Source: a virus
Direction: 5' to 3' (one strand)
IMG/VR virus record: IMGVR_UViG_3300042883_001344
Location: 1 to 33,962 of that record
DNA: 33,962 nucleotides
Below the pieces are notes generated by a model. It was not told where the DNA came from. It worked only from the letters and a program-made list of their open reading frames with translations, and searched no databases. Positions 3,138 to 33,860 of the stretch are shown here, piece by piece. The position numbers and the translations under genes were made by a program. How positions within the stretch are numbered: the stretch's first letter is position 1; each line of letters begins with the position of its first letter.

Positions 3138-6100
3138 GTGCTCAGAGATAGAGGACCAATACATAACATAGGCTATGGTGTATCTTCTCGCGAACTACCT
3201 TCTCAAGAGGGTGAAACGGAAACTCCAAGTCCAGGTAGTGGCAGGATAGCAAAAGCCCTCGATGGCCACCCAATGATGAAGTTCTTGGGTTCGGCTGCTA
3301 CGGCAATGGTAGTTACGACAGTAGCATCAAAGCTTACTAAATCAGGTGGATTGAAACTAGGAAAGTTTTTACAAGACTCTTCAGATGCGGCAATTAGAGC
3401 TGGCCATTATGACAGGCCATCTACTAGATTAGTAAAAGGTATCTTAGACCTTAGGCAGGGGCTAGATGAGTTAGAATCTGTAACACGCGCAGGTGCAGGT
3501 TTAGATGACTATTCTAGATTAGTCGAAAAAATTGATGGAAAACTAACTACTGGTTACGATGGCAGAAGAAGTGCTAGAAGTTTTATTGTACCACTTAGCG
3601 AGCAAGGTAGGAAGACTACTGGAATTGGCATCAATAGTGAATCAAGTGAATCATTCTTAATTAGAGATCAAATCCAAAAACAATTAGTTCGAGCAGCCAG
3701 GAGAATGCCGTACGAATTGCCGGCACTGTACGTTACGCAAAAAGCTGTTACAGATCCATTATTTGGACACAATCAAGATAAGAAAAAAGTTAACTGGTAT
3801 AATCCAGCAGATGTATTAACGGATTTTGTTAAAACCTCTACACTTAACTTAGCTACAATGGTTTTGCCATTTGAAGCTTTAGGGGCAGCAGGTGCTGCAG
3901 GCAAAAGTTCGTTAACCACTTTAGCTAACTCAATGAACGACTTAAATGCACTAAGTCCAATAAAACAAAAAGCAGCTGGATTTGCTTTTGATCTTAGATC
4001 TCTTTTAGCAGAAGTTGGCCACGACTCTGCTGACGTATTGAACAAAGCCATTAAGCTCTCTTCAAGAACAAGTGGGGCGTTTGCTTCAGGAGTTCAAGAA
4101 TCAAACAATGTTCAACCAGAATTTGTTCAAGCTTTAAGAGCAGCTAGGAAAGGTGTTAAAGATGCTGGGAGAAGAGCTTCTGATGTAGACGCCGGAAAAT
4201 TAACAACATTAACAGAACAAGCAAAAGCTTTTTTTGTTTCCAAGTCAGATGATGGATATGGAGTCTTAGATGCCTTCCCTGGATTAAAAGGAATATCTTC
4301 CGGATTCCAAGCATTTAAGAATCAATTTCATTCACTTGGTGTTGCGCATGATGTTGTGTCAGGTAAATTATCTAGAGAACAAGCTTTAGGCAATCTAACA
4401 AAAAAGTTTAGCTTAACTGATAAAGATATTTTAGGTCAAGCTTTAGATCAAAATCATACTAGATTAAAACTAAAAGGCCTTGCTGGAACTGACGCTAAAA
4501 GTATTTTAGAAAATTCAATCAATAAAATACAAACACAGCATTCAAGTAAACTATCAAGGGTAGCTCACGATTTTGACTCAATGGCTGCCGGTGGGCCATC
4601 TTCAGATAGATTCACATCAGGTGAATTTTATCGAGGTAGATTAAAAGATGCCTATAAAGATGAATTAGAAAGTAGATTAGTTTCTGGTCGTCGATTAGAT
4701 AGAAAAGTTGCAAGAAGTTTTGTTGATAATTTAGAAATAAAAGACTTACCTAGCAAGAGTACGTTTGTATCATTGGACAGAAGAATTGCATTAGGAAGAA
4801 AAGCAATAAAGTTAGAAGGCGATGAATTTTTTGATGAAATCATTAAGCGCTTTCGAGGAACAAAAGCAGGTAAAGATTTCGCAAGTGCTATACCTGAGGG
4901 TAGTGCGCTTAGGCAGTCAATAGAAGAAGTCGATAGCTTATTTATTGCTAAAGATTTTAGAAAAAATTTAGACTTAAATATTCGCTCTCAATGGAATCAA
5001 GTATCTAAGAATCAAATTGGAGAACAAGTATCTTCAATATTAAAACCCACTAAACAAAGTTACGGTGATTTTGTTGGAGATTTAAATGATCAAAAGAAAA
5101 GTTTCTTATTAAGAAAAACTGCAAAAACATTAGGAATCCCATTAACAGAATCTAATGGTAAATTACTTTCAGAAAATGTTCTGTCTAAAAGCATAGCACA
5201 AAGTGGGATAGACCCAACTGACTTCCAATACATGAGAGATTACCTTTTAGAAAATAAAGGTTTAACAACAGGATTTTTTTCTGGGTCTGGAAGTATTTTT
5301 GGCCTAAAGCCAGTGCTAATCGATGAAGCTGTTGAAAGAGGAATGTTCTCCTACATGGGAGAAAGGCAACAGAAGGCTATTACTCAAATAGCTTCGTTGC
5401 AAGCTACTAGAGATCCTTTAACCAGAGGACTTGGCTCGGCAACAGAAACTCTTGGTAAAACAAGAGTCGGAGGAGTGTACCAAACTAGAGGCGGGCAAAT
5501 ACTAGACCTCACAAAGATTAGCAGTATGGTTAATAGTGCTAAAGATTTCATGGCTTCTGAGTTTAAGATTCCCATTCTTAACTTTAACCCAGCCGACATG
5601 TTTGGTTATCAATCTTTAAGGGCTGCAAAAGAAGCTCCTTTAATAAGTTATGTTTCTTCTAGATCAGTACAACCATTCCTAGGTGCAGAAACTTCTAGGC
5701 CAGAGTTTTATCTATTTGCAAAGAATAAAGGATCCAAGGGTTCGTTAACAGGTTTTACTCAAGATCAAAGAGGAATTCTTAACGCAAAAACAATAGCAGG
5801 TTCTTACAGGCCAATATCTTCTTCGAGTACTGAATTAATAAGTAGAGAAGCAAGAAATGCAGCAGGGCTGACTGGACAATCACCTGATCAAATAGCCGGT
5901 AGAACTGAAATGCCCGGTAAAATTGGTAGGGTAGCAAGATTCAAAAAAGCTTTTGACATTGATTATGAGCAACCAAACTCTTTAGCTAGATTGGCACAAA
6001 GGTTTAGGAAACGTTCTTATGACATAAATAACCCATCTACTATGGCTAAGCTAATTAAAGATGGGTCAATTACTTATAAGCAAGGCGGGAAAACTAAAAG

Positions 6101-15126: not shown

Positions 15127-18100
15127 ATGGCAAAGAACACTTCGCTAGAACTTTATATTTCTTCTTACATGGCCAATATGAGCCAGGAAGAATACGACGC
15201 TGATGTACTGGTCCTACAAAATGCTATTAGATTAGGCAAGCAAGCCTATAGGGATTTAAAATTAATAGTTAGTCAAGACTCTAATAAAAATTTTGCTAAA
15301 GGTCTTGCCTATTCTAATAGTAGCCCATCTTCAGAATTTTCTGAAAATGAACCAAAAACAAAAGGAAATCTTAACCTATTCCACTATTGGTATACGGATG
15401 CCAGTAAGGTTGAAGATGGATATATTATTACCGATCCAAATAGTTCAACTGGTGGTGATGATAAAAGGGGTAATCATGTTTTTGCTTCCCCCAACACGCC
15501 TTCCGCCAAAACTTCTGCAGCTGTAAAAATTTTATATACTAATAAAATTAAATTATTAAAAAATGCAGTGGAAGACTATGTTTATCCTGGTGGTAGAAAC
15601 AGAAAAATATTAGATGCAAATGATTTAGACCCAGAGTTTAATAATTCTGCAGCTAGCAAATATGCCGACCTGACTCCAATTGGCGGTCCTGGACAAGACT
15701 ATACTATAGATCCGTATGCCATGACAGCAGCTGGCACATATTTATGGCAGAATATATTTGATACAACAAGCAATAAGTTATCATCACGCGTAGTTAATTA
15801 TGTAGCTGAACTTGACAGGGTAAAAGTATTTTACTTTGATGCTAGCAATCCTCAAGCAAGAGTGCTTGGATTAAACCCCGGCTATTACGATGCTAAATAT
15901 GTTCTAAGAAATTCCTTCCTAGGATGGATAGCTGTCTTGCAGGGATGCTTGGACAAATTAAATAACTTTGATCCAATTACTCATTCTTTCAAAAGTGATT
16001 TTGCAACATACATAAATACTGGAAATTCAACTGAGATAACTTTAGGTAATGAATTCGATGCGATACTTAGTAGATACGGTATTGTATTTGATTTGGATAC
16101 AGCACTTGCTAGTAAATATGGGAAGACCATAGACGACAATTTAGAATCTTATAAGAGTGGATTCTATACAGTCCTTAAACCTAATGAAAATTTTATTAAT
16201 AAAAATGAAAAATATATAAAGAATGTTTGGAATAAAATTAAGGTTAGCGGTTTATTGGACTTAGCTCTACATGTTAATTCCATTTCACAGTTTGCCCAAC
16301 AAAGGTTCACGGCAGGAAACAAACTTACAGATCCAACACAAGGCTCTGCTTTTAATTACATAGACCCATTAAGAGATACTATGTGGTTAAACGATCTCAA
16401 TAATGTTGTGGCCAACTTAACTAGGGACCCAATAACTTTATCTATAATACAACAGTATTTTCCTAACTTAGTCACACTGTTCTTTAACGCAATAGCAGCT
16501 GCAGCAGATTACAATCCTAATGCAGGAAGTCAAGATGATCCCATTAACAATCCAGATGAATTAGCAAAGAGTTTATTGAGAGCTTTTGGAACAGATCCAT
16601 TAACCGGAAAACCTATTTTTCAACCGGCTTGGGAATTAATGAACACTGGCCAAAAAATAAAGAAAGCTTTAGATCAATTTCCTTTTAGAGAAAATATACC
16701 ACCACAAACTCCAGATATATTTCACTTTAGATTAGGAGCTGCAAATTTTTATGTTCCACCAATTTCTATTAATGTAAATTCTCAATTCAAAACAGGAAGT
16801 CTTACTGGCGGTGCAATCAGACAAAAAAGTTCTCCTAAATTTAATGCCGGCTATAAACAGACTTCGATTAATGTAAAATTATTTTTTCCTAACTACGAAG
16901 AAATCTGGGGAATATCAATTGATGGCATCAAAGAAGTAAAGCTCACTGATGATTTTAAGATTGACTTTAAAGTTGGAGGAGAATCAGAAGAAAAAATAGA
17001 TAAGTTCCTATCCTCATTAAGAGGTTTGATTGCAGCGTTTAAGTATGCCCCCATTCTTCCAATAAAAAATCACTACCTAAATACCGTACATGGAATTACT
17101 GGAGTAGCCCTCTCATCCATGAGTATCTCAACAATACCAAATTATCCATTTGCAGTTGTTGTCGATCTGGAGTTGTTGAACTTTAACCATAAACCTTTCC
17201 TACCTATGATCAAAGATTTTAATCAAGCTATACATTGGGGTAAGTACAGACACTACATGGGCAAAGCAGCAGGGTCTCTACATTCTTATGTTAATGAATC
17301 TTTCTTTATAGAACAAGCAGTTCCAGATTCCAATACAGCAAATCCCGCTAACGCTGCTAGTGGCTTGCCCGTAGATATTCATACAGTAACTACTGCAGAT
17401 ACTCCATCTCCTCCGTCTAATTCTAATGTAGATAACATATATGAACCAGACCTGTTAACAAACCCTTTTACAAATGATGTCTTTAATACTAATGTTATAA
17501 AGGAATGGAGAAATGGCAATAATATAAGTCTATTCATTCCAGCCCAAACCCAAAGTAAAATGTTTACTCCTGACATTTCTTCCTTTAGGTCCAACGAAGA
17601 AAAGGGAATGGAAGATTTAGGTGAATCTTTTTGGGAAGCTAGAATGAAGTCACTAGGCATCGACGTTGCCCAAGCATCAAAGTATCACAGGAATCTGGGA
17701 GATGTAACGCAAACATCTATAGAAGGATCTGTAGCACCTTCTGCTAGAAAGCTAGTGCTTAACTCAATAGAATTAATTGTAGCAGGAGCAGGCAAAAGTG
17801 AATACAACGAAAAAGTATATGCCTACCTTGTTACATCTTTTGTCATTGAGAACAAAGCTAACTTAAATCAGCAAGAAATAGATTATTTAAGAGTTGTTCC
17901 AGCAGAAAAGAATTTAATACAAAATCATTTTGACAGCAATACTAAAGTATATACTTTTAAAAATAAAGATTTAATACTGAAACAAGAAGGCCTAGAACCA
18001 AAATCGTATAGCCTTAGACAAGTTAGAGCATTGTTTGAAAAAAGCTCTAAAGGAACAGAAGCTTACTTAGACAGTTTAGCTCAAGACGATGCAAGAGAAA

Positions 18101-21100
18101 AATCAGCAAGAACTGGTTTGCCGATTAGTAAGTTCATAGAAGATTCTGAAAAAGATATTGCTAGAGCTTTTACTGTTTTATTCTATAATAGGTATTTTAA
18201 AAGTGGCCCAATGCAAGATGTCATAGAGAAGTATAGGTTAACTCAATCAAGATCTGGTGATGGCGGAATATTTGGCAATGGTGTAGCTACCTTTAATGAA
18301 TGGGAAGTCCCAATGATTAAAGTTGACCTTGATCCTAAAGCAGTTATTGTCAATGGCGTTTCAGTAACTCTTGGAAACAACTTAGCTAAAATGCAACTTC
18401 AAATGCAAGAAGAACCAACCTATCAACACATAGGTGGCAGGGATACTTACCTAAATATATCTATGACTGTATTTGGAGAAAAAGAATTAATAAAAATAAG
18501 AAATGTTTTTGAACACATCAATGGACTAGCTAGGCTCGAACACGCAGCTGGAGTAATAGGCTTTATGGGAATAAAGAATATTATAGCTGGTCTAGCAGGA
18601 ATGAAATACGTTATGCCTTTAAGCTATGAGGTTGATACGATACCAAATTATCCTCATGTTTATGATGTCAGAATGTCCTTTGTCGACTTTGACATATTCC
18701 AGCAACAAAGAGAACAGCTTTCATCCAAGCAGCAAAAGGAAATGGTCGATGTTTTTGAGACCAAGAAAAATCCTTTCTTAAGAATCAAACAACTATGGGG
18801 AGCATTCAATGCTTATCCAGATTTTCCTTTATCAATTAAAGATGAACTTGGGGAAACAGTAGGTTGTTTAGACCCAGATTATTATTTTAGATCTTTTGAA
18901 ATGTTTGATCAAGATATTATAAATAATATAACTGTTCAAACTGAAAAAAATAAAGATTTTATTATAACTCCAAAACAATATAATTCTAGTTCTACTTCTG
19001 ATCAAGCTAAAGCTGACGTAGCAATAATGAACGCTATCAAAGATTTTATTCAAAACGATAAGGTATCAGAATTAAAAAAGTATTTTGAAGAACAAGGAAT
19101 TGGTGCTAGAGAATCAGTATCATATGTAGAAGGCGCAATCAAAGAATTTTTTAATAATCAAAAGAAACAATTATTAATCGATTATATTGAAGAGTATGAC
19201 GAACTTGATGGGAAGATAGCTGTCTTTGGAAGGGAATATGAAATAGGCTCTAGCGTTACTGGTATAGAATTAAAAGCTGGAAACATTGTGTCTAGTGATC
19301 AATCTAAGGTTGATGAACTGCAAGCTTACCTGTCAGGGGTAAAGGGCACTGGAGACGAAGAGGGCTATATATCATTTGATCCAGACGGCCTTAGCATACA
19401 TCACATAATTACATTGATCCCAGCACAAGATAATGTCGCTGAAGATAAAGTACCTGCAATATTTACTACGGCTATGGGTTATCACTTAGGCTATATGAGC
19501 AAAAAGAATAACAAATTTTATTTAAGTGTTGATGGAATAGAAGTAGTTAAATCTGAAACCACTGGAAAAACTGGATATAAGCCAATACCAATATCCCATC
19601 AAGACGTAGACTCTCCATCAAGATCATATTTAGCAGGTCAAAAAACGCATACAGGAGTTGCTGGAGCAACGCTAGCAGATTACGCTGATCCATACTCTAT
19701 TGGTAGTGCTGACAAGCCAGAAGTAATGGCGACAAAAGCAAAAGTACCTAGCACAACTAAGCATTGGGAAAAGATGCTTATCGATACCCAGTACAGAGAT
19801 ATCTCTGGAAGAATGCTAAGAGCATTTCCTACGTATATGCTTTGGCTAATTGATGAAGGTGGCTATTTTTCCGGAGTAAAATTGTTTGATAATTTTTATG
19901 GACTTCAGTCTATTATAGATTTTTCCATAGTTCAATCAGAAGACATTCTTGGTGACACATTAATGTTAAGGGTTTCTAATCTTTATTCCAAATTAACAAC
20001 ACCAGCTTCGAATGCATTGTTTGATAAAACAGACCAAGGCTACAGCGATCAAATGACTACTCAAGATGGAATGGAATCTGTAATTAGTAATGTCTTGAAT
20101 AGGTCTATGAATTTGCAAAACCATATGGACAGTAAGTTTGTTGTAGACATAAATAATATTAGACTTAAACCTGGTGTTAGAGTTCATCTAAGAGCTGGGT
20201 ATGGCTCTAATCCCAATTCATTGCAAACAGTATTTAACGGAGTTATCACTCAGGTTGAAAATGGAGAAATAGTTACCATCACAGCACAATCAGATGCAAT
20301 AGAATTAAGCCCTATCGTCAATAGCACAAATAAAAAAGGCGATAGCGGAAAAATAGATGGTGGAATAAATACTGGTTTTTGGCTATCAGAACCAAGAGAC
20401 TTAATGGTTAGACTATTGTCAATGGGTTCTTCTCGAACTAGAGAAGCTATAGCTCATGCAACTAGGGGTACTATTTTTTCTGAAAATAAATTTGGAATTA
20501 GACACTTTGGTTCTATATTATATCAACCATTAAATGATTTAGAACAAGCAAAAAATGATGCAGTGACTGCTTCGGTAAAAGATGCTTTTGAATCATTGGG
20601 TGCTGCTAATGGCAGCGCATTTGGAATGGGATCTGCACTTGGGGTATTGAGTTCTGGGACCAATGATGGAGAAGGTACATTTGGAATTGGTCCAGAAATT
20701 AGAGTTCCTGGCATTTCTTTAATGAAAACTTTATGGGCTAATTTTTCTACTCAAAGAGATTTTGAGATATTTAAAAGAAATATATATCCAGGAAATGGTA
20801 CAGGAATTGCTCAATATTTAGGTGGAGACTTGGGTGATGGTTGGTCTACAGTTGCAAGTTTAACTCCAGAAGATAAACCTAATGAAAGAATAAATTACAT
20901 AGGAAAAGCTACAGATGTAACTTGGAATAATTTAACCAGTTTATATGGCCAAGGTCAAAGTGGTGCAACATCGGTAATGGATTCGTACAATATGGGCAAA
21001 GAATTAAAGGATGGTACTGCATCAGCCAATAAAGCTGGCGCATTAATTACCATGGGACTTGCTGCTACTGGCATTGCTATAACAGGAGGATTAGGTGCTC

Positions 21101-24100
21101 CAATTATTGGTGGATTTATAGGATTAGGTGGAGGATTAACTGGAGTCTTAAGTGGCAGGAATGGATCTAACATATTTAACGCTATGGGAATCACCTCAGG
21201 GAGAGACGATGATCTTCCAGGATTAGATGAAGTATCTTTTAGAGCTCAAACTTATATGAGAAGTGTTTGGGATTTATTCCAAATGTGCGCAAGATTACTT
21301 CCAAACTACATAGTAGCTATTAGACCTTTTGAAGATAGGTCTACTGTATTCTATGGGAAACCTCATTGGCTTTATACGTCAGGAGTAGTGCCGCTTACTG
21401 CTGGTTATGATACCGATCAAAGAGCTAGAGAAAAGGGAATTAACTCTCCAAGAATGGTTGACATAGATCAAAGCACTCAGGCGATTATAGACTCTTTAAA
21501 TCAACAGTCTAATCCATTTGCTGACGCAGAAGCATTTAGAAGCGCAAACCAAAGCATAAGGTCGATAGATAGTATCTTGGCAGAACAGAATGGAACATTT
21601 ACAGATTATGACCTGTATGCTCCAAGAGAGGCACTAACTGGAAAGTTGATAGCATTTGGCGTTGAATCTTCAATGACGTACAAAAAAAATAACACTGTAG
21701 TATCCAAACTTCCTTCTGATTCAGGTTATGCTACTGTTGGCTACCACTTGCCCATAAGTGGGAATGGCACAGATGTAACAGCTCAATTAGACAAAGATCA
21801 ATTAAGTAAACATCAACAAATAAATCAACTTCCATATAGATATAGATTTCCATTCTTTACTGACAGGAAAGATGGAATAGTACTAGAAGATTACGCTTAT
21901 TATGCTTTGAGTGACCAGTTAGGCAAATGGGGAAAGCATAGATCAGATTATGTGGCTTTAGCAATAGATGATTGGTCGTACGGTTTAGTTGGTGGATCTA
22001 AGCAAGAAACTCAATGGGTTAAGTTATTGAAACTAGAAGCTTCTATTTTTTCCGGAATAAACACTACAGATAGTGCAGATCTGCAAAACATAAATGAAGT
22101 AGGGGTGGCATTAAAGTTTAATTTAAGTTCTACTATTTCTTTTAATAATGAACTAGAAGATGCATCATCATATATATATTCAGAAAAAAATAAAACAGCA
22201 GGAAACAATGCTATTGTTAGGATGCCTTATCCAGATTCAGAAAGTGATAATTCATTCGTACTCAATCAAGCTGATGGGGAATATAATATAACTAGAACCA
22301 GCTTTGCCCAAACAAACAACGCTGCTTCTATGATGGAGTGGGGATCCCCAAGTACTCCAATAGAAGAGCAATTTTATATAGCCATGAGATGGCCGTATAA
22401 TCCTGGAGAAGGGGCAGACGAAAGAACAGTAGAGAACTTAAAACTGCTTCACAACATAACTGATACTTATGGTAGTGTCCAAGATTATAAATCAAGAAGA
22501 GTATTAGTATATAGTCCTACAACTGGACAAGCGGTAGTTTGTAAACCAGCTTATTTTTTGTGGGGCAAAGAAGATGTTGGCGTATTAGATATGGGGTCAT
22601 CAGAAAAAGATGGCATAACAGGTTGGGATCCAACTACATATTTAGATACAGCTGCAGGAATTATAACAGGCGATAGAGTTGGTAACTCTGATTCTTCAGG
22701 GTTCTTAGCAAATAGAGGCAATAATTTAGGCCTAGAAGATAGAAAAAAGTTAGAGGCAATAGTTTCTCCCGACGCTGCGTACTTTTTAGGCATGTTAAAC
22801 TTGACTCCATCTGAACAAGAATATTGGAAAAATGATCAAAACTCTAAAAACGAAGGCTCTTGGCACGAAGCAGAAGATGCAATAAAGAATGCTGCCAAAT
22901 CGGGCATAGCACCATTTCCTGTACCCCGCAATTGCCTCTATGCTTTTGTCCCTGATGACACACCATTAGGCGTAGTCCCAGACATAGTACTGCCAGCAAA
23001 AGAATTTGAGAATCCAACGAATGGCAGCGGTGACTACAAGCCCAATAAAATAATTGGCTTTGGAAGTTTTAAAGGCAAAAAAAGTGTCATCAATCCAGAG
23101 TTTACTAATGGTAAAGATTTTTATCAATTTATTCCCGACAAAACAACAAGCGCACAGATTGACTCACTCCAAATTATCGGAGCTACAAAATTAGCAGGAA
23201 ATATATTGTCAGCTGATAATGCTGTTAATGGGTACTTTGATATGGTTAAATCTAAAGATTTTGCAGGGCTTACTAGGGACTCCTTAAACACAATCTTAAA
23301 TGAAGAAACTGAAGCATCAAAAGATTCCAAAGAAGCTATCGGAAGAAAAAGATTTGTTGGCGTTTATACCGCTATAGATCAGCTTTCAGTAAACGCTAGA
23401 AAATTATACGACGAAGACTACGATCAATCAGTACACGTATTAGCTGGAGATGGAAGAACATTAAGTGAAGCAGCAAATGTTTGGGATCAATTTAGAGTTG
23501 CTTATCATACGTACACTAATGTAAAAGAAGCTTTTCAAAATGCATATGGCTTAGATCCAGATAGTGAAGAAAGCCTATTCTCACTTGGTTCACTAGGTTC
23601 GGCACTGGGTACCAATATAACAAATGGTCCGTTAAGTAGAGATATCTTTTCTACTACGGGTGACGAATATGAAGAAGCAGCGGCAGCTTTAAAAAACAAT
23701 AATAATGTTTTTAAAAAGTATGGAGATACAGGACAAAGTGCAGAAGACGAATTTACAGCGGTGTTTGGCGAAGATTTTTTCAAAGACCCATATAAAGATT
23801 ATGTTGGACCAGTAGCTAACAGGGGACAGGCTGCAGAGGAAAAAATTAAACAAGGATTGGAGTTATCTAGACAAAAATTTATTGATGGATCTCTAGAAAA
23901 TGATGGGCTAATAGAATACTTCAATAGCTTAGTTGACTCCAAGGTAGAAAATATTAAAAATATTATTTCAGATGGAATAAAATTGTCTGGCGGTAATCCC
24001 AATGATTATCTAGGTAAAATAGAAACTCCAAAGCAACTCTTCCTATTTATAGTAGGAGCTTTTAGAAATACAATGTGGTCTGATTCATATGCTAGAGCAT

Positions 24101-27100
24101 GGTTAGTACTTAAGCCTAACCGAAAGATGAGAGGTCAAGATCTATGGGATTTCAATCCAGTCTTAAAAATATTCCAAGCTTATATAGATCCAAATTCAAC
24201 TTATGGAAAAGACCCTACAAAATTCAGAAAGTTACTTGCAGAGAATAGAGGCGAAGGTTCTAGCGCGACTAACATAGTAGGTAAAGTTACTCAGGATATA
24301 AATGGATTTTGGGATACAAACATTGGACCATTGTTTAACGCCCTAGGAGATAGCTTATCTGGTCTAATTAACCTATTCAGGATGTCAATGATGCAGTTAG
24401 GTTATGGACTTGGTCAAGTTGGTCAAATGTCAAAGCAGGCTAATATTTTAAACAAAGCTTTAAATGACTCTATTTATTATTCATTAGGCAGACCTGGCTC
24501 CTTGTTAAGAGCTGTGGATAATCCTTTTACTAGAGAATACGGCGAACCTGTTATAGAGGTTAGAGAACCGTTTCAGAGAATGCATTATCTAAGTTCTTTC
24601 TCCCATATTATTTCTAATGGAATTCAAGAAAATATATCAGGAGTTGCAACTGCTGTTACCGCTGTGTCGGATGGAAAATATCCAGTAACTGTAGCAATGG
24701 ACAAATCTATCCCGTCAGAAAGACAAGTAGAAAAAACAGTAGAAACTGGGTTATATTATGATAATGTAAATGGCTCTGGTCTCTTTGGAGCACTTCAACC
24801 AATACTCCACCCTTTTGAATTCGCTAGAGGAATTTCTAAATTTGCTCAAGGAACTCCAGATGAGCTGTCAGCAAGAAGGGTAGCATTGTCTCATCTTAAG
24901 GAATCTCTTAAAGATATTTATGGTGGAGAAATTGTTGTCGTAGGCAATGCCGACATAAGACCTCATGACATTGTTTATCTAGCAGACGTATATGAAAGAA
25001 TGTATGGCATGTTTGAAGTAGAACAAGTAGTGCATCACTTTACTTCTGAGCTTGGGTTCATTACTTCAATAACACCAAATGCACTAGTTACTGTTAATGA
25101 TCCATCTAGGTGGTTCATGTCATCATGGGTAGGCACGTGGTTCCACATGCAGGCTTTGAGGAATGATACCAGACTATACATGAACTCGCTAGGCTCTGGC
25201 GTCACTGCATCAGGTCAAATAAGCGTAGATGGTTTAGCTGACTCCCTGCAAACACAAATGGTTGGAGGAATACAATATACCCATGGAGCATCTTCTATAG
25301 CAAAAGATGCAATGGCTACTTTTACTGCTGAAGGTTTCCAGGATATAAATGAAAATGTAAGAACTATGGTTGAAAACAAAACCAATATTGGCAGCGGTAA
25401 AGCTGGCGTAGGTACAATGTTTGCAGCAATGACTGGGCTTGGAGCAACTGCTGCAGCAATTGCAACTTTAGCAGTCCCTGGAGCTGGTGTATTAGTAGCT
25501 GGAACTGCAGCTCTAGTAGGGGGTAATATTGGCGGAGGTCTTGCCTGGAAGGGTTGGAGTTGGATTAGAGACAATGTACTAGATCAACACGGATGCTATA
25601 TACAATACTTAAACAAAAATGGACAGGCAATGGATGCCGGTCTCAATCAAAGTGGCCAGGGAATGGTAGTGGGTAGATACAGTACCAAGAAGCTTCTTCC
25701 TGGGATTTTAGGAGTTAGCGAAAAAATAAGAACCCCAGAAGGCTATATGTATATTAGATCAGATGATCTTCTTAAAAGTCTTGGTTGGAGAGAAAAAGAA
25801 ATAAACGATCTAACTAGATATATAAGTCTTGAAAATGCGTTAGTCAATGCTCAGGTATTAAAATATTCTGGCATAGGACCTGAAAAAGCTGGGTTAAATA
25901 GATTCTTTAAAGTAATATGTAAAGTTACACATGTAGTTGACGGTGACACAATTGACGTAATCGACATATTTGATAAAGCCCAAGTTCCATTTAGAATTAG
26001 ATTCGACGGAATAAACACGCCTGAATTAGCTATAGTAAAATCTAATACAGCTACTCTTCCACCTAAGACTGTTAATATAAAATCTGTTAAAATTGAAAAT
26101 AATGTTATGTTTATTAAATTTGATTTAACGCTTAAAGAATTTAGTGATCTAGTAGATACCCCTAGTAATTACTTCCAAACAGATGATAAGGTAAGAATTT
26201 CTATTCCAAATTTTAACGGCCTACCATTATTGCTAGACGGGACTGTAGAGATAAACGGTAAAGAAAATGAAACAGTAAAAGATACTACTACAATTACTCC
26301 AAATTTTACTAATGGAATACAAAGATTTAGACTGTCTTCTGACCCATCTGTATCTAGTTCTGGGTCCGGGTCTGGGTTCTATGTTGGATCAAGAGTTAAG
26401 ATTTATAACAAAAATTCTCCAGAAGTTAATTGGATGGAAGGAGTTATAACTGAAATTGATAATACTGAAAATTTGTTTGACCTAGAGGCTAACAACTATG
26501 GCATCTTTGTAGATGTAGACAAAAAATCTGGGACTACTGCTTCAGGCATTTACTCTGTTAGCGATAGACTTTTCCTCAATGGGTATATAACACTCCCATT
26601 CAAGCACGTTAATCTTGAGCAGAAAAACTATACTGGCAACGTAACAGTCTACTCCTACGCTTCTACTGAATTTAAGCTAAACGTATCACCAGGTGGAGCT
26701 TCGGCATTGTTTACTCAAAATGCAATTAACGACAAAATAATAGTATTAAGAGCTAATCCAGATACTAAAAAAATAACAGCAATTGTTGGAGAAGATGACT
26801 TTGAAGCTGGAGCACAAAAAAATAGCTACCTTTCTTATGGTAAAGATGTTTATGGCTCAAGAGTTTTAGGAACTGTTTTTTATAAAACTAGCTCGGATAT
26901 AATAGAAGCTTTAAAGATACAGGTCAATAATTTATTCTCAAAACATAGAGGTCTTTCTAGTAAAGATTTAAAAACAAAATTACAATTAAGTTTTTATGAT
27001 GGAGTTTTCCATGATAGGTTTACTGAAATTTATGATGCAGTTTCAGCAACATCTCTAGTAAATTACTATAAACTGTATGCAGCGAACAATTCTATACTAA

Positions 27101-27366
27101 AAGATTTTTCAGTCGAAACAATAAAAATATATAATATTTATTTTTCCATGAGAGTAATTAGAGATGTTTATCAAAAGGTTTCAGATTGGCCAAATATAGC
27201 ATGGGATGAATACTATGAAGATGGAACCCCAGCTTCTTTGAACTGGGAGCTTGTAGTTAATAATCTAGCTAAAGTTTATACATCAGGTTTACTTGTAGAG
27301 CAACCATCAATCAACACTGCTACAGAAACTTTAGCAATAGGGAAACGGATCATAAAAAATGAGTGA
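15127..27366 (+). CDS. Giant multidomain baseplate hub protein with split nuclease-like domain (4079 aa)
   Basis: Two related tube/hub-like domains lie at about 532-698 and 1064-1198; each ends in a block containing TIPNYP. A hub region follows at about 1562-1735: RAFPTYMLWLIDE, then LKPGVRVHLRAGYG, then FNGVITQVENGEIVTITAQS, a pattern typical of gp27/gpD-like hubs. Further hub-type blocks lie at about 2044-2090 (LLPNYIVAIRPFEDRSTVFY) and 3153-3328 (GNADIRPHDIVYLADVYERM). Two Gly/Ala-rich hydrophobic segments occur at about 1969-2011 and 3428-3475. Residues 3597-3633 carry a staphylococcal-nuclease signature (VDGDT, then FRIRFDGINTPE), and the fold seems to resume at about 3854-3920 (PGGASALF, DVYGSRVLGTVF). 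It abuts the gene before it (TAAATG) and overlaps the gene after it by 8 nt. Confidence 0.8.
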   Translation: MAKNTSLELYISSYMANMSQEEYDADVLVLQNAIRLGKQAYRDLKLIVSQDSNKNFAKGLAYSNSSPSSEFSENEPKTKGNLNLFHYWYTDASKVEDGYIITDPNSSTGGDDKRGNHVFASPNTPSAKTSAAVKILYTNKIKLLKNAVEDYVYPGGRNRKILDANDLDPEFNNSAASKYADLTPIGGPGQDYTIDPYAMTAAGTYLWQNIFDTTSNKLSSRVVNYVAELDRVKVFYFDASNPQARVLGLNPGYYDAKYVLRNSFLGWIAVLQGCLDKLNNFDPITHSFKSDFATYINTGNSTEITLGNEFDAILSRYGIVFDLDTALASKYGKTIDDNLESYKSGFYTVLKPNENFINKNEKYIKNVWNKIKVSGLLDLALHVNSISQFAQQRFTAGNKLTDPTQGSAFNYIDPLRDTMWLNDLNNVVANLTRDPITLSIIQQYFPNLVTLFFNAIAAAADYNPNAGSQDDPINNPDELAKSLLRAFGTDPLTGKPIFQPAWELMNTGQKIKKALDQFPFRENIPPQTPDIFHFRLGAANFYVPPISINVNSQFKTGSLTGGAIRQKSSPKFNAGYKQTSINVKLFFPNYEEIWGISIDGIKEVKLTDDFKIDFKVGGESEEKIDKFLSSLRGLIAAFKYAPILPIKNHYLNTVHGITGVALSSMSISTIPNYPFAVVVDLELLNFNHKPFLPMIKDFNQAIHWGKYRHYMGKAAGSLHSYVNESFFIEQAVPDSNTANPANAASGLPVDIHTVTTADTPSPPSNSNVDNIYEPDLLTNPFTNDVFNTNVIKEWRNGNNISLFIPAQTQSKMFTPDISSFRSNEEKGMEDLGESFWEARMKSLGIDVAQASKYHRNLGDVTQTSIEGSVAPSARKLVLNSIELIVAGAGKSEYNEKVYAYLVTSFVIENKANLNQQEIDYLRVVPAEKNLIQNHFDSNTKVYTFKNKDLILKQEGLEPKSYSLRQVRALFEKSSKGTEAYLDSLAQDDAREKSARTGLPISKFIEDSEKDIARAFTVLFYNRYFKSGPMQDVIEKYRLTQSRSGDGGIFGNGVATFNEWEVPMIKVDLDPKAVIVNGVSVTLGNNLAKMQLQMQEEPTYQHIGGRDTYLNISMTVFGEKELIKIRNVFEHINGLARLEHAAGVIGFMGIKNIIAGLAGMKYVMPLSYEVDTIPNYPHVYDVRMSFVDFDIFQQQREQLSSKQQKEMVDVFETKKNPFLRIKQLWGAFNAYPDFPLSIKDELGETVGCLDPDYYFRSFEMFDQDIINNITVQTEKNKDFIITPKQYNSSSTSDQAKADVAIMNAIKDFIQNDKVSELKKYFEEQGIGARESVSYVEGAIKEFFNNQKKQLLIDYIEEYDELDGKIAVFGREYEIGSSVTGIELKAGNIVSSDQSKVDELQAYLSGVKGTGDEEGYISFDPDGLSIHHIITLIPAQDNVAEDKVPAIFTTAMGYHLGYMSKKNNKFYLSVDGIEVVKSETTGKTGYKPIPISHQDVDSPSRSYLAGQKTHTGVAGATLADYADPYSIGSADKPEVMATKAKVPSTTKHWEKMLIDTQYRDISGRMLRAFPTYMLWLIDEGGYFSGVKLFDNFYGLQSIIDFSIVQSEDILGDTLMLRVSNLYSKLTTPASNALFDKTDQGYSDQMTTQDGMESVISNVLNRSMNLQNHMDSKFVVDINNIRLKPGVRVHLRAGYGSNPNSLQTVFNGVITQVENGEIVTITAQSDAIELSPIVNSTNKKGDSGKIDGGINTGFWLSEPRDLMVRLLSMGSSRTREAIAHATRGTIFSENKFGIRHFGSILYQPLNDLEQAKNDAVTASVKDAFESLGAANGSAFGMGSALGVLSSGTNDGEGTFGIGPEIRVPGISLMKTLWANFSTQRDFEIFKRNIYPGNGTGIAQYLGGDLGDGWSTVASLTPEDKPNERINYIGKATDVTWNNLTSLYGQGQSGATSVMDSYNMGKELKDGTASANKAGALITMGLAATGIAITGGLGAPIIGGFIGLGGGLTGVLSGRNGSNIFNAMGITSGRDDDLPGLDEVSFRAQTYMRSVWDLFQMCARLLPNYIVAIRPFEDRSTVFYGKPHWLYTSGVVPLTAGYDTDQRAREKGINSPRMVDIDQSTQAIIDSLNQQSNPFADAEAFRSANQSIRSIDSILAEQNGTFTDYDLYAPREALTGKLIAFGVESSMTYKKNNTVVSKLPSDSGYATVGYHLPISGNGTDVTAQLDKDQLSKHQQINQLPYRYRFPFFTDRKDGIVLEDYAYYALSDQLGKWGKHRSDYVALAIDDWSYGLVGGSKQETQWVKLLKLEASIFSGINTTDSADLQNINEVGVALKFNLSSTISFNNELEDASSYIYSEKNKTAGNNAIVRMPYPDSESDNSFVLNQADGEYNITRTSFAQTNNAASMMEWGSPSTPIEEQFYIAMRWPYNPGEGADERTVENLKLLHNITDTYGSVQDYKSRRVLVYSPTTGQAVVCKPAYFLWGKEDVGVLDMGSSEKDGITGWDPTTYLDTAAGIITGDRVGNSDSSGFLANRGNNLGLEDRKKLEAIVSPDAAYFLGMLNLTPSEQEYWKNDQNSKNEGSWHEAEDAIKNAAKSGIAPFPVPRNCLYAFVPDDTPLGVVPDIVLPAKEFENPTNGSGDYKPNKIIGFGSFKGKKSVINPEFTNGKDFYQFIPDKTTSAQIDSLQIIGATKLAGNILSADNAVNGYFDMVKSKDFAGLTRDSLNTILNEETEASKDSKEAIGRKRFVGVYTAIDQLSVNARKLYDEDYDQSVHVLAGDGRTLSEAANVWDQFRVAYHTYTNVKEAFQNAYGLDPDSEESLFSLGSLGSALGTNITNGPLSRDIFSTTGDEYEEAAAALKNNNNVFKKYGDTGQSAEDEFTAVFGEDFFKDPYKDYVGPVANRGQAAEEKIKQGLELSRQKFIDGSLENDGLIEYFNSLVDSKVENIKNIISDGIKLSGGNPNDYLGKIETPKQLFLFIVGAFRNTMWSDSYARAWLVLKPNRKMRGQDLWDFNPVLKIFQAYIDPNSTYGKDPTKFRKLLAENRGEGSSATNIVGKVTQDINGFWDTNIGPLFNALGDSLSGLINLFRMSMMQLGYGLGQVGQMSKQANILNKALNDSIYYSLGRPGSLLRAVDNPFTREYGEPVIEVREPFQRMHYLSSFSHIISNGIQENISGVATAVTAVSDGKYPVTVAMDKSIPSERQVEKTVETGLYYDNVNGSGLFGALQPILHPFEFARGISKFAQGTPDELSARRVALSHLKESLKDIYGGEIVVVGNADIRPHDIVYLADVYERMYGMFEVEQVVHHFTSELGFITSITPNALVTVNDPSRWFMSSWVGTWFHMQALRNDTRLYMNSLGSGVTASGQISVDGLADSLQTQMVGGIQYTHGASSIAKDAMATFTAEGFQDINENVRTMVENKTNIGSGKAGVGTMFAAMTGLGATAAAIATLAVPGAGVLVAGTAALVGGNIGGGLAWKGWSWIRDNVLDQHGCYIQYLNKNGQAMDAGLNQSGQGMVVGRYSTKKLLPGILGVSEKIRTPEGYMYIRSDDLLKSLGWREKEINDLTRYISLENALVNAQVLKYSGIGPEKAGLNRFFKVICKVTHVVDGDTIDVIDIFDKAQVPFRIRFDGINTPELAIVKSNTATLPPKTVNIKSVKIENNVMFIKFDLTLKEFSDLVDTPSNYFQTDDKVRISIPNFNGLPLLLDGTVEINGKENETVKDTTTITPNFTNGIQRFRLSSDPSVSSSGSGSGFYVGSRVKIYNKNSPEVNWMEGVITEIDNTENLFDLEANNYGIFVDVDKKSGTTASGIYSVSDRLFLNGYITLPFKHVNLEQKNYTGNVTVYSYASTEFKLNVSPGGASALFTQNAINDKIIVLRANPDTKKITAIVGEDDFEAGAQKNSYLSYGKDVYGSRVLGTVFYKTSSDIIEALKIQVNNLFSKHRGLSSKDLKTKLQLSFYDGVFHDRFTEIYDAVSATSLVNYYKLYAANNSILKDFSVETIKIYNIYFSMRVIRDVYQKVSDWPNIAWDEYYEDGTPASLNWELVVNNLAKVYTSGLLVEQPSINTATETLAIGKRIIKNE
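25915..26887 (+). other. Interrupted SNase-like (thermonuclease) domain within the hub gene
   Basis: The first half encodes VDGDT (residues 3604-3608) and RFDGINTPE (3625-3633). By position these match staphylococcal nuclease D21, R35, D40 (here Asn3630) and E43. A stretch of about 215 residues with beta-rich and Ser/Gly-linker sequence (about 3637-3853, including SSSGSGSG near 3743) follows. SNase-like sequence then resumes: GGASALFTQNAINDKIIVLR, the expected helix and strand, then DVYGSR (3907-3912), matching the D-x-Y-G-R element that supplies R87, with one extra residue. E43 to R87 spans 44 residues in the classical enzyme and 279 here. Whether it is catalytic is unknown; Asn at the D40 position could weaken calcium binding. 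Confidence 0.68.
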
Positions 27367-27761: not shown

Positions 27762-30023
27762 TTGCCAAATGTACTTAGTGGATTATCTGATAGCCTAGGG
27801 CCAGATGGCTCTCCCCATACTGCTACAGCCGGTAGCTTTGATCCGACTACAGCATCATCTGGTGCAGGGGCAGAAGTAACAATAGTTAGCGAATTAAGCG
27901 CTAAGGAAAAAGAAATTTTTGACGATAGATTAAAACAAGTTGTTGCTACTGGAATTGTTAACGATGTTAATCAATTAGTCTTTACCTTTAGAGCTACTGA
28001 TTCAGCTAAAATAGGTTCCACTTCAACAATATACCTTACTGCATCTAAGGGAGTTAATGGCAATAGTAACCCTATACTAAATACTGACCAAAGCTATTGG
28101 TCAGGTATAGATGGGAAAACAGCATATACCTGTGCCTCAATGGTAGAACTTCTATTGTGTTTGGGCTCTAGCGGATCAGGGCTATATGCAAGAGGGAGTT
28201 TAGGTGTTACTAATGGCTTTACTGGTGCAGCCCAAGGAAATATGGCAGATCAGGGTGGTATATCGGATCATACATTTGGTAGAGCTTTTGATATAACTAT
28301 GGTTGGCAAATCTGCTTTAGACGCAGTTAATCTGTCTGGCAAAAATTTAGATAATTATAGAATTGCTTTTGATATACTTTTATCTAAACTTAGAACTATT
28401 CCAGAATATCTTCACCCTGACTTAATCGTAATCCATGATCAACTCGTAACTGAATATGGAATAGGAAATGGATTTGAAGGTGACTTCAAGGGAACCAACG
28501 CTGCGTTAATAATAAAAAATTATCCTGAGTTAAGTAGAATAAATTTTACCGGAGATGCAGGCCATAGAGATCATATACATATGTCTTTTGGCCCAGCAAG
28601 AGCTGGTTCATATAAAAGCTGGCAAGATGCAGCAAGTGACTCTTCTGGTGGAGAAGACCCAGACAGCGATGCTGTTTTTGATGAAACGACATTAGATATT
28701 TCTGAACTTGGACAAAGTTTTGCTACTACTGGAGTTGCATTAAAAAATAAAAATGCACTCTACAGAGCATTAGTTAATTATGGTGGCTACAGTCCAGAGG
28801 CAGCTGCTATATGGATGTGCGTTGCTGAACGAGAAAGTCTTTTTAGTCCTGGTGGCTTTAATGGTAAGGTCAATGGAAGTGGTGGAACTCCACCTGGGAG
28901 TGGAGACTATTCTATTGGTCTTTGGCAAGTAAACTTTTATGGCACACCGAGCCTACTGACTTCAAACCTAGTTCTAGCTAGTTTAGATTCAACAAAGAAA
29001 AAAGTAATAAAAGAAAATGGTCTTGGCTATAAACTAATCGACAAAGATTGGTTAGCTAATGGCACAAAAGATCAAACCACGGCTATAGCTAAAATGAAAG
29101 AATGGTATAAGGTCAATCCTAAAAAGCCAAATGAAGAAGGAATTAGTGAAGGAAAAGTTCATTCTGACTCAAGACTATGGAACGCTCTAACTCAAATATT
29201 CTTGCTATCAAAAATAACTGACGATAGAAAAGATATGTGGATGTGGTGGAATTGGGGAGAATATCCTGGAGGTCCAGCTTCAGGTTGGCTAGCTAAACTT
29301 AAATTCCAAACAGCAGTAAACTATTATGTTGCCAACAACCCAGGAAAAACGGCAGAAAACCTTAAGACGTGGGTAAAGAAAAAGGGAACAGACATGAACC
29401 TCAACTCATCTAAGAAGTATTTAGACAGATGGTTACAGGGATATGTATTTAAGATCAATGGCGACGTACTTGAAAGGCCTACTAGTAGTGTAGAAGGAGT
29501 CCCTAAGTTTAGTAAAACAGAAATTAAAGAAGCTGCAATCTGGTTGAGAACTAATAGAATGAACGCATGGGAAAAAAGAAATGGAAAAGCTTTTGGTTGT
29601 GAAGGTTTCATTAGTAGACTTAGCGCTGGACTAGGACTTTATGGCCCAGCTAATCAAGATCTATTCGAAAAAGAATGGACTCCACAAGAATGGAACAACG
29701 CAGATAGACCACCCTCCAATCTAACTAGCCACGACAGTGCACAATCTCACTATGATGCAATAAAAAATCGCACATCTTTTTATGGTCCACTTACAGCTTA
29801 TGGGATAGCTCCTCCAGCTGGATATCTAGTATTTTGGACAGGTGGCACTGGGGCAAATACAAACTACGGTCACATAGGTATATCATTAGGTGACGGAACT
29901 TTCATAGACCAAAATGACCTTAAGAATAGTTACAGCAATAGCATAACTACACCAAAGCTAATTGGCGATCCGACTTGGCCGGGAAGTGCGTACACATACA
30001 GAGGATCTTCTCCAACTTGGTAA
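27762..30023 (+). CDS. Tail lysin with three peptidoglycan-active domains (753 aa)
   Basis: It digests the host wall during injection. Domain 1 (about 120-285) is M15-peptidase-like: SDHTFGRAFDI (168-178) gives the H170/D177 pair and GHRDHIHMSF supplies H271/H273, the expected zinc ligands. Domain 2 (about 325-530) is lysozyme/transglycosylase-like, with AERES (catalytic Glu candidate E356 or E358) and GDYSIGLWQVN (381-391). Domain 3 (about 585-750) is NlpC/P60-like, with the Cys in GCEGFI (C613) and the His in YGHIGISLG (H704). The first legal start in this frame is TTG 27762, with only a weak GGA upstream. The frame is open back to 27693 and encodes plausible protein, so translation may enter from the 117-aa gene by +1 frameshifting. 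Confidence 0.85.
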   Translation: MPNVLSGLSDSLGPDGSPHTATAGSFDPTTASSGAGAEVTIVSELSAKEKEIFDDRLKQVVATGIVNDVNQLVFTFRATDSAKIGSTSTIYLTASKGVNGNSNPILNTDQSYWSGIDGKTAYTCASMVELLLCLGSSGSGLYARGSLGVTNGFTGAAQGNMADQGGISDHTFGRAFDITMVGKSALDAVNLSGKNLDNYRIAFDILLSKLRTIPEYLHPDLIVIHDQLVTEYGIGNGFEGDFKGTNAALIIKNYPELSRINFTGDAGHRDHIHMSFGPARAGSYKSWQDAASDSSGGEDPDSDAVFDETTLDISELGQSFATTGVALKNKNALYRALVNYGGYSPEAAAIWMCVAERESLFSPGGFNGKVNGSGGTPPGSGDYSIGLWQVNFYGTPSLLTSNLVLASLDSTKKKVIKENGLGYKLIDKDWLANGTKDQTTAIAKMKEWYKVNPKKPNEEGISEGKVHSDSRLWNALTQIFLLSKITDDRKDMWMWWNWGEYPGGPASGWLAKLKFQTAVNYYVANNPGKTAENLKTWVKKKGTDMNLNSSKKYLDRWLQGYVFKINGDVLERPTSSVEGVPKFSKTEIKEAAIWLRTNRMNAWEKRNGKAFGCEGFISRLSAGLGLYGPANQDLFEKEWTPQEWNNADRPPSNLTSHDSAQSHYDAIKNRTSFYGPLTAYGIAPPAGYLVFWTGGTGANTNYGHIGISLGDGTFIDQNDLKNSYSNSITTPKLIGDPTWPGSAYTYRGSSPTW

Positions 30024-32618: not shown

Positions 32619-33860
32619 ATGACCATGTCCGAAAAATATTTTTTGATCACAACCAACCACATAATCAAGGCACCTAACATGACGCAGGCTAAATTAGCCG
32701 TAGAGGGCGAGATGGATTTCTTGGGTGAAGTATTAAAGAACGATTCTCATTCAAAAGAAATACAAGCTGCAGAAGCATTTAAGTTTGCTGGATATAATAC
32801 AGCTTCTGAAATAGACGACGATGAACCCGATGCCTATGTCGACCTAGAGGATTCTCCAACTGAAGTTAATAGATTTGATTTCATTAGATCTGAGAATAAA
32901 AGATTGGCTAAATTAGCTGAAAAGAATAAGAACGTTAAGGATGAAGCCATACTGGCTGTCTACGAAGCAGCATACGATGCCTTCCTGGACTTTGAGCTTC
33001 CCCCTATAAAGCAGAACGTAATTACTTCAGGGAAATCTGGAGCAGGGGAAACTGCTGTTGCAGTTTTTGGAGACTGGCAGCTGGGAAAGGTAACCCCTAG
33101 TTACAACTCTGAAGTGCTTGGCAAGAGAATAGAAGCCTATGCAGACAAGCTAGTAGAGATCACTAATATCCAAAGAACTCATCATCCAGTAGATAATCTT
33201 CACGTTTGGCTCTTGGGAGATATCGTTGAGGGGGAAGAAATATTCCCAGGGCAAAGTCACTTAATTGACTCAGGTTTGTATAGACAAGTTGGAGTTAATG
33301 GCCCTGAAATTCTTGGCAATTTCCTCAGAACTGCCCTTCAGAACTTCAAGCATGTTCATGTTACTGGGGTCATAGGTAATCATGGGGCTGTTGGCGGAAG
33401 AGCCAGAAAGCAGCATGACCCCGAGACCAATATGGACAGACTTCTCTATAAGATTGTTGAATTGATATTCAAGGACGAGCCTAGAATTACCTTTAATATT
33501 CCAGACGGCAAGGGTGAGAGAAACTTCTATGCAGTAGACACCATTGGTAGCTACAGCTCCCTGCTTATTCATGGCGATCAAATGCCTGCACCAAGCGCTT
33601 CCTATGGTTACTATAAAAAGGTAATGGGATGGAAAGATGGTGCTATCCCGGAGCATTTTGAAGATGTATTTATGGGGCATTACCACCAGCAGGTGAAGAT
33701 GACTATAGGTAGTAGTCTTTTGAGAATTTCTGGTTCTCCAGAAAGTCACAACACCTATGCTCAAGAGTATTTCTCCTCCATGAGTAGACCATGTCAGCAC
33801 TTAATGTTTGTCCACCCAGATAATGGAGTTACTTCAGAGTACTCAATCTGGCTAGACTAA
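32619..33860 (+). CDS. Calcineurin-like metallophosphoesterase (413 aa)
   Basis: It is a predicted two-metal phosphoesterase or nuclease of the SbcD/Mre11-like superfamily. Motifs occur in order: GDWQLGK (151-157; the usual D-x-H is D-W-Q here), LLGDIVEGE (198-206), GNHG (253-256), a lone HGD (318-320) and GHYHQ (353-357). The first 145 residues are an acidic and helical extension that I cannot assign. D-x-Q in motif I is something I recall from phage members of this family, so it is probably not inactivating. ATG 32619 follows AAAGAAAG; ATG 32625 is a possible alternative. It is the only gene here without an obvious virion role and may act in DNA metabolism or ejection, which the sequence does not decide. 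Confidence 0.85.
   Translation: MTMSEKYFLITTNHIIKAPNMTQAKLAVEGEMDFLGEVLKNDSHSKEIQAAEAFKFAGYNTASEIDDDEPDAYVDLEDSPTEVNRFDFIRSENKRLAKLAEKNKNVKDEAILAVYEAAYDAFLDFELPPIKQNVITSGKSGAGETAVAVFGDWQLGKVTPSYNSEVLGKRIEAYADKLVEITNIQRTHHPVDNLHVWLLGDIVEGEEIFPGQSHLIDSGLYRQVGVNGPEILGNFLRTALQNFKHVHVTGVIGNHGAVGGRARKQHDPETNMDRLLYKIVELIFKDEPRITFNIPDGKGERNFYAVDTIGSYSSLLIHGDQMPAPSASYGYYKKVMGWKDGAIPEHFEDVFMGHYHQQVKMTIGSSLLRISGSPESHNTYAQEYFSSMSRPCQHLMFVHPDNGVTSEYSIWLD

Follow-up and report, generated by a model that had tools for sequence, protein, structure and literature searches.

Why should a phage build a staphylococcal nuclease (SNase)-like domain into the hub of its baseplate? This was asked in 2007 of the BtI1 prophage, whose hub contains an SNase-related domain that was suspected to have been transferred from a stand-alone gene, and the reason for whose presence there, the authors wrote, was "not obvious" (Hardies et al. 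2007, PMC2147016). The BtI1 hub is a homologue of gp147 of Bacillus phage 0305phi8-36, and belongs to the gp27 family of baseplate hubs (PMC2147016). A search of the open-access literature after 2007 for papers on tail-borne SNases found none. The same question is raised by a stretch of viral DNA of 33,962 nt (positions 1-33,962 of IMGVR_UViG_3300042883_001344, hereafter the window, meaning the whole stretch analysed), in which a giant reading frame holds both halves of such a domain near its end.

The hub protein and its SNase-like domain

The features of the window that bear on this question are listed below, and residue n of the translation of positions 25831-27363 corresponds to hub residue 3568+n.

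15127..27366, + strand: giant baseplate hub protein (ORF, 4079 aa)
25420..25524, + strand: Gly/Ala-rich membrane-like segment, hub residues 3432-3466 (hydropathy 1.86)
25903..26025, + strand: SNase N-half, strands beta1-beta3 (phrog_452, residue conservation, model strands)
26026..26259, + strand: outer insert, first part, 78 aa, in the beta3-alpha1 loop (64% identical to L010/L011)
26260..26583, + strand: inner insert, 108 aa, nested in the outer one (comparison of relatives' inserts)
26584..26685, + strand: outer insert, second part (comparison of relatives' inserts)
26686..26886, + strand: SNase C-half (alignment, window model strands, residue conservation, L030 model)
26887..27363, + strand: conserved C-terminal helical domain, containing WPNIAWDEYYEDGTPASLNWELV (invariant WDEYY block, model helices)
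27762..30023, + strand: separate tail lysozyme-like gene (weak Phage_lysozyme2 match, E 4e-4, under the curated cut-off)

By homology, the product of the 15127-27366 reading frame is a gp27-type baseplate hub of the 0305phi8-36 lineage. Specifically, profile searches matched it to phrog_20474 (E 9e-120) and phrog_8809 (E 3e-20), and tblastn matched it to Bacillus phage KLEB27-3 (E 1e-28), Moorella phage MTATph1 (4e-23) and Acinetobacter phage ME3_37 (8e-7). The C-terminus of a homologue (L030) returned 'Baseplate hub protein' from the Foldseek viral library (E 1.3e-25), and the genes downstream, one of them weakly lysozyme-like and others encoding baseplate wedge proteins, place the hub gene in a baseplate gene cluster. 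The preliminary description of this DNA, which had assigned the domain to a phage baseplate hub, is borne out by this homology to annotated hubs. The same cluster includes a reading frame at 32619-33860 that matched phrog_284 'exonuclease' (E 1.2e-42) and no Pfam family; either the label is wrong or this may be a second nuclease-like protein in the baseplate cluster. The membrane-like segment at residues 3432-3466 precedes the SNase domain, and the Moorella and ME3 hubs have similar segments close to their C-terminal part. The segment would fit delivery toward the membrane, although it proves nothing.

Both SNase halves lie within hub residues ~3593-3920 (25903-26886) and are 220 residues apart. 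The N-half reads FFKVICKVTHVVDGDTIDVIDIF...RIRFDGINTPE. In terms of staphylococcal nuclease numbering, its VVDGDT motif supplies D19 (D3605) and D21 (D3607), and RFDGINTPE supplies R35 (R3625), position 40 (N3630) and E43 (E3633). The C-half comprises helix alpha1 (PGGASALF), the strand KIIVLRAN, a DDFEAGA loop and the strand YGSRVLGTVF; R87 (R3912), within YGSRVLGTVFY, was assigned via the strand motif R-x-[LMI]-[GAS]-x-[IVL]-[FW]. The hub translation thus confirms VDGDT, RFDGINTPE, PGGASALF and the R87 strand at the positions first proposed for them. The helices of the C-terminal domain that follows were modelled with a pLDDT of about 90 in both the window and L030 models.

With respect to family membership, phrog_452 'endonuclease', from a library without curated cut-offs, matched hub residues 3585-3637 (E 2.4e-5) and the corresponding region of a relative, L068 (E 5.7e-9). 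Pfam searches of the whole hub gave no matches, and a sequence-profile search of the PDB did not find SNase. When the window's two halves were joined without the insert, an SNase match was found in Pfam, but at 12.7 bits it fell under the cut-off of 21; the best member of the hub family reached E 0.0012. Comparison of the hub family with the stand-alone SNase family described below gave an hhalign probability of 93.6% and a score of 45.7, as against a maximum of 16.2 over 20 column shuffles, in an alignment restricted to the first half plus helix 1. The putative second half is supported by its R-x-L-G-x-V-F motif and by the model of a relative.

That relative, L030, is compact and insert-free, and its AlphaFold model (316 aa, 50-row alignment) had a pLDDT of 80.2. 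All 50 of the 50 PDB matches listed by Foldseek were staphylococcal nuclease (probability 1.00, E from 3.4e-4), and the viral library returned, after hub protein, mainly TNase-like and other nucleases. The window's own 511-aa model, insert included, also has the SNase strands and helix, with the SNase halves at locally high confidence, but Foldseek gave no significant PDB match for it, probably because of its large low-confidence insert. The single barrel predicted for the two halves was therefore recovered in a relative ~43% identical, and we infer it for the window itself. Taken together with the phrog_452 match and the residue conservation considered below, the L030 fold upholds the claim of an SNase-like domain in the hub, and we regard the fold assignment as very nearly certain.

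Catalytic residues and loop inserts among relatives

Scans of IMG/VR for the C-terminal region of the hub recovered 4, then 21, then at least 78 distinct loci (96 stretches), a count that is a lower bound and depends on the search patterns; the contigs are mostly fragments. A collection of about 85,000 species genomes, bacterial and archaeal, contained no relative of this region, and tblastn against annotated phages gave none either. Among 58 complete relatives, 47 share invariant D19, D21, T22, R35, E43 and R87. These 47 sequences occupy several deep branches, down to about 30% identity, and only 10 of the 101 domain columns examined are invariant, the catalytic residues among them. The proposed equivalences of D21, R35, E43 and R87 therefore hold, all four being kept in the same 47 relatives. 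The Asn reported at position 40 is also present, but it is the common state rather than a sign of decay: the 47 residue-retaining relatives have Asn in 36 cases, Asp in nine and Gln in two. L009 has Asp at this position.

The remaining 11 relatives (L017-L020, L022, L035, L038, L043, L047, L055, L059) group together as one clade with a support of 100/99. They retain the domain itself, but have other residues in place of both E43 and R87, and Glu in place of T22. Since it persists in these phages, the domain would seem to have a structural part as well. In the window's own clade, dN/dS was 0.07-0.10 for the SNase halves together, the lowest of the region, as compared with 0.13-0.28 for the insert and 0.15-0.25 for the helical tail. 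As judged from these alignments, the catalytic residues of the hub SNase are under purifying selection.

Two relatives, L073 (near 10658) and L064 (near 10643), have the hub frame broken at the same conserved SNase site (KSRQRR, then a stop), and in both the +1 frame then stays open for 205 codons, which encode the remainder, R87 and the C-terminus included. The break is a shared frameshift, possibly a programmed one.

The proposed splitting of the domain by an insertion is confirmed, with about 220 residues between E43 and helix 1 in the window as compared with 17-44 in most relatives, so that homologues lacking the insertion do exist. What did not survive comparison was the suggestion of one grafted beta domain: a 108-aa inner module is nested in an outer module of about 111 aa, and L010 and L011 have the outer module alone. 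Among the matches listed, the inner module is carried only by the window/L002, L003 and L009 (= L004). L010 and L011 are nested among these carriers in the tree, where branch support is moderate, and the inner module was thus seemingly gained or lost more than once. It contains SGSGSG and a weak Tudor/SH3-like stretch, FYVGSRVKIYNKNSPEVNWMEGVITEID. For a Tudor domain in the insert, the matches were sub-threshold only: PF22987 (Tudor-like) reached E 0.007-0.01, under its cut-off, and 3bdl (the Tudor-SN comparison) stood second in the Foldseek list for the window model with a probability of 0.08. The insert was modelled with low confidence. A separate clade, L075-L084, has an unrelated insert of 167-173 aa in the same beta3-alpha1 loop; homology between the two inserts was not supported (hhalign 0.3%).

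A second SNase and the role of the hub domain

A second, stand-alone SNase gene is present on 15 of 16 contigs of large relatives (PF00565, E 1.3e-13 to 7.6e-17). The gene is highly conserved (for example L101:3846-4286, - strand). Its position was worked out in seven genomes, and in these it shares the strand of the hub gene and follows it at a distance of about 31-35 kb. No signal sequence is evident by eye. In L009, the one genome examined in this respect, the gene adjoins those for dCMP deaminase, ThyX, a pyrimidine-dimer glycosylase and glycosyltransferases, and these nucleotide-metabolism neighbours point to work inside the cell. The corresponding motif of the stand-alone proteins is RLYGVNTPE, which puts Asn at 40, and their other catalytic residues are in place. 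Because these are confident SNases, N40 alone is no mark of a dead enzyme, and the family does not strictly require D40. The stand-alone gene is intact in L059, L021 and L047, where the hub copy has lost E43 and R87 (the hub C-terminus of L021 is identical to that of L020). The hub domain may plausibly have come from the stand-alone gene that these phages carry.

Since an intact SNase domain is present here and in dozens of related phages, the particle probably carries an enzyme that cuts nucleic acid. We favor the reading that the hub SNase is a virion-borne, probably active nuclease used at entry, and put its probability at roughly 0.6; nuclease activity, presence in the particle, and the place and target of action are what we infer from the sequences and models. 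Catalytic competence, taken separately, we judge to be rather probable. At the tail tip, the domain would act as a metal-dependent nuclease on nucleic acid encountered in adsorption or entry. Candidate targets are DNA in the host envelope or matrix, and host nucleic acid that might be reached as the hub C-terminus crosses the membrane. Intracellular work probably falls to the stand-alone SNase that these phages also encode, and the hub domain would be decorated by the inserts that individual lineages carry in the loop joining strand 3 to helix 1. Counting against an active nuclease are the Asn at position 40 and the clade without E43 and R87, and the insert, in a loop near the active site, might hinder substrate access.

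An alternative is that the hub retains the SNase fold for a structural or nucleic-acid-binding purpose and does not cut with it; the module might then serve in assembly, in adhesion or in contacts with the DNA of the phage itself. Persistence of the fold in the 11-sequence clade, Asn at 40 and large inserts beside the active-site loop would all agree with such a role, and the loss of catalytic residues from an SN fold has a precedent in the repeats of eukaryotic Tudor-SN. It is difficult to reconcile, however, with four catalytic residues that are invariant in all 47 of the other relatives, down to about 30% identity, or with purifying selection that is strongest on the SNase halves, and as a general account we consider it unlikely. 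It is favored for the E43/R87-less clade only; the reuse of the fold raised in the preliminary description accordingly fits that clade and not the window's, where the residues are kept. A further alternative, a short motif match with no SNase domain behind it, would account for the sub-cut-off Pfam score and for the failure of the full-length window model to find SNase. It is hardly credible given the phrog_452 match and an hhalign score far above the shuffles, and is already contradicted by the Foldseek probability of 1.00 for a relative 43% identical.

If the domain does cut, its substrate might be extracellular: a narrower version of the favored explanation holds that it depolymerizes extracellular or surface DNA at adsorption, much as a tailspike depolymerase would its own substrate, rather than host DNA at entry. 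Hub proteins are located at the tail tip, SNases classically require Ca2+, which is more available outside cells, and the cell interior is seemingly covered by the stand-alone copy. Against this, the hub sits at the baseplate centre and not on fibres, and the neighboring membrane-like segment could suggest delivery further in. We consider this restriction to extracellular DNA somewhat unlikely. Returning to the reading of an active nuclease used at entry, a more general proposal, offered tentatively and at less than even odds, is that large myophages have repeatedly built an active SNase into the hub at differing positions in the chain, where it would travel with the particle and act as infection begins, alongside a separate intracellular SNase; one clade would have turned it into a non-catalytic structural part, and in others unrelated loop inserts would tune access or binding.

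The 2007 question rested on one prophage. The domain is now seen in dozens of relatives, with conserved catalytic residues, and at three positions in hubs. A natural clade lacking E43 and R87, together with an apparently intracellular paralogue as control enzyme, makes the question testable in a tube, and the fragments available from compact relatives are about 316 residues long. Tail-tip nucleases, should they prove active, would be another class of tail-carried enzyme besides peptidoglycan hydrolases and polysaccharide depolymerases.

Comparison with known systems

An SNase in the hub is, as far as sequence comparison goes, not peculiar to the window phage, and recurs in hubs that carry it elsewhere in the chain. 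Tblastn with the KLEB27-3 hub led to elements on plasmids of Cytobacillus and Bacillus velezensis that are annotated as 'nuclease', and the KLEB27-3, MTATph1, ME3, Cytobacillus and B. velezensis hubs each have an N-terminal or central SNase-like domain. By inspection, all five retain D21, R35, E43 and R87. The ME3 hub (E 4.7e-14) and, in a six-frame search, the Moorella hub (E 2.2e-9) passed the Pfam SNase cut-off; the KLEB27-3 hub fell under it, and for the Cytobacillus and B. velezensis hubs Pfam gave nothing at E 0.01. In B. licheniformis and Paenibacillus, related hubs have no SNase and carry a lysozyme or glucosaminidase. SNase hubs (L109, L110, L006) tend to be accompanied by peptidoglycan hydrolases in separate downstream genes, whereas hubs without an SNase (L111, L112) contain the hydrolase in their own chain. 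Separate genes of this kind accompany the hubs of KLEB27-3, Cytobacillus and B. velezensis and, on a weak match, that of the window, but in this small sample the pattern is broken by ME3, which has an M23 peptidase within the hub.

The closest described parallel is the BtI1 hub, likewise a gp27-family baseplate hub with an SNase-related domain (PMC2147016). There, the domain is N-terminal, without an insertion as described, and in a Bacillus prophage-like element (PMC2147016), whereas that of the window is near the C-terminus, split, and in an environmental phage family. ME3_37, KLEB27-3 gp035, MTATph1 and the Bacillus and Cytobacillus plasmid-borne hubs share the hub family (by tblastn), the SNase and its four residues, and differ in the N-terminal or central position of the domain. 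The stand-alone phage SNase of phrog_452 (for example in L101) resembles the window domain in fold family, catalytic residues and Asn at 40, but is a 132-aa gene, apparently intracellular and outside any virion protein. Staphylococcal nuclease itself (thermonuclease, PF00565) shares the fold and D21, R35, E43 and R87, but has Asp at 40, is secreted, and has a short loop in place of ~220 residues and other C-terminal helices. Finally, Tudor-SN and extended Tudor proteins also present an SN fold interrupted by a beta-rich module, which in the window is possibly Tudor-like; unlike the window domain, the SN domains of Tudor-SN are without the full catalytic set.
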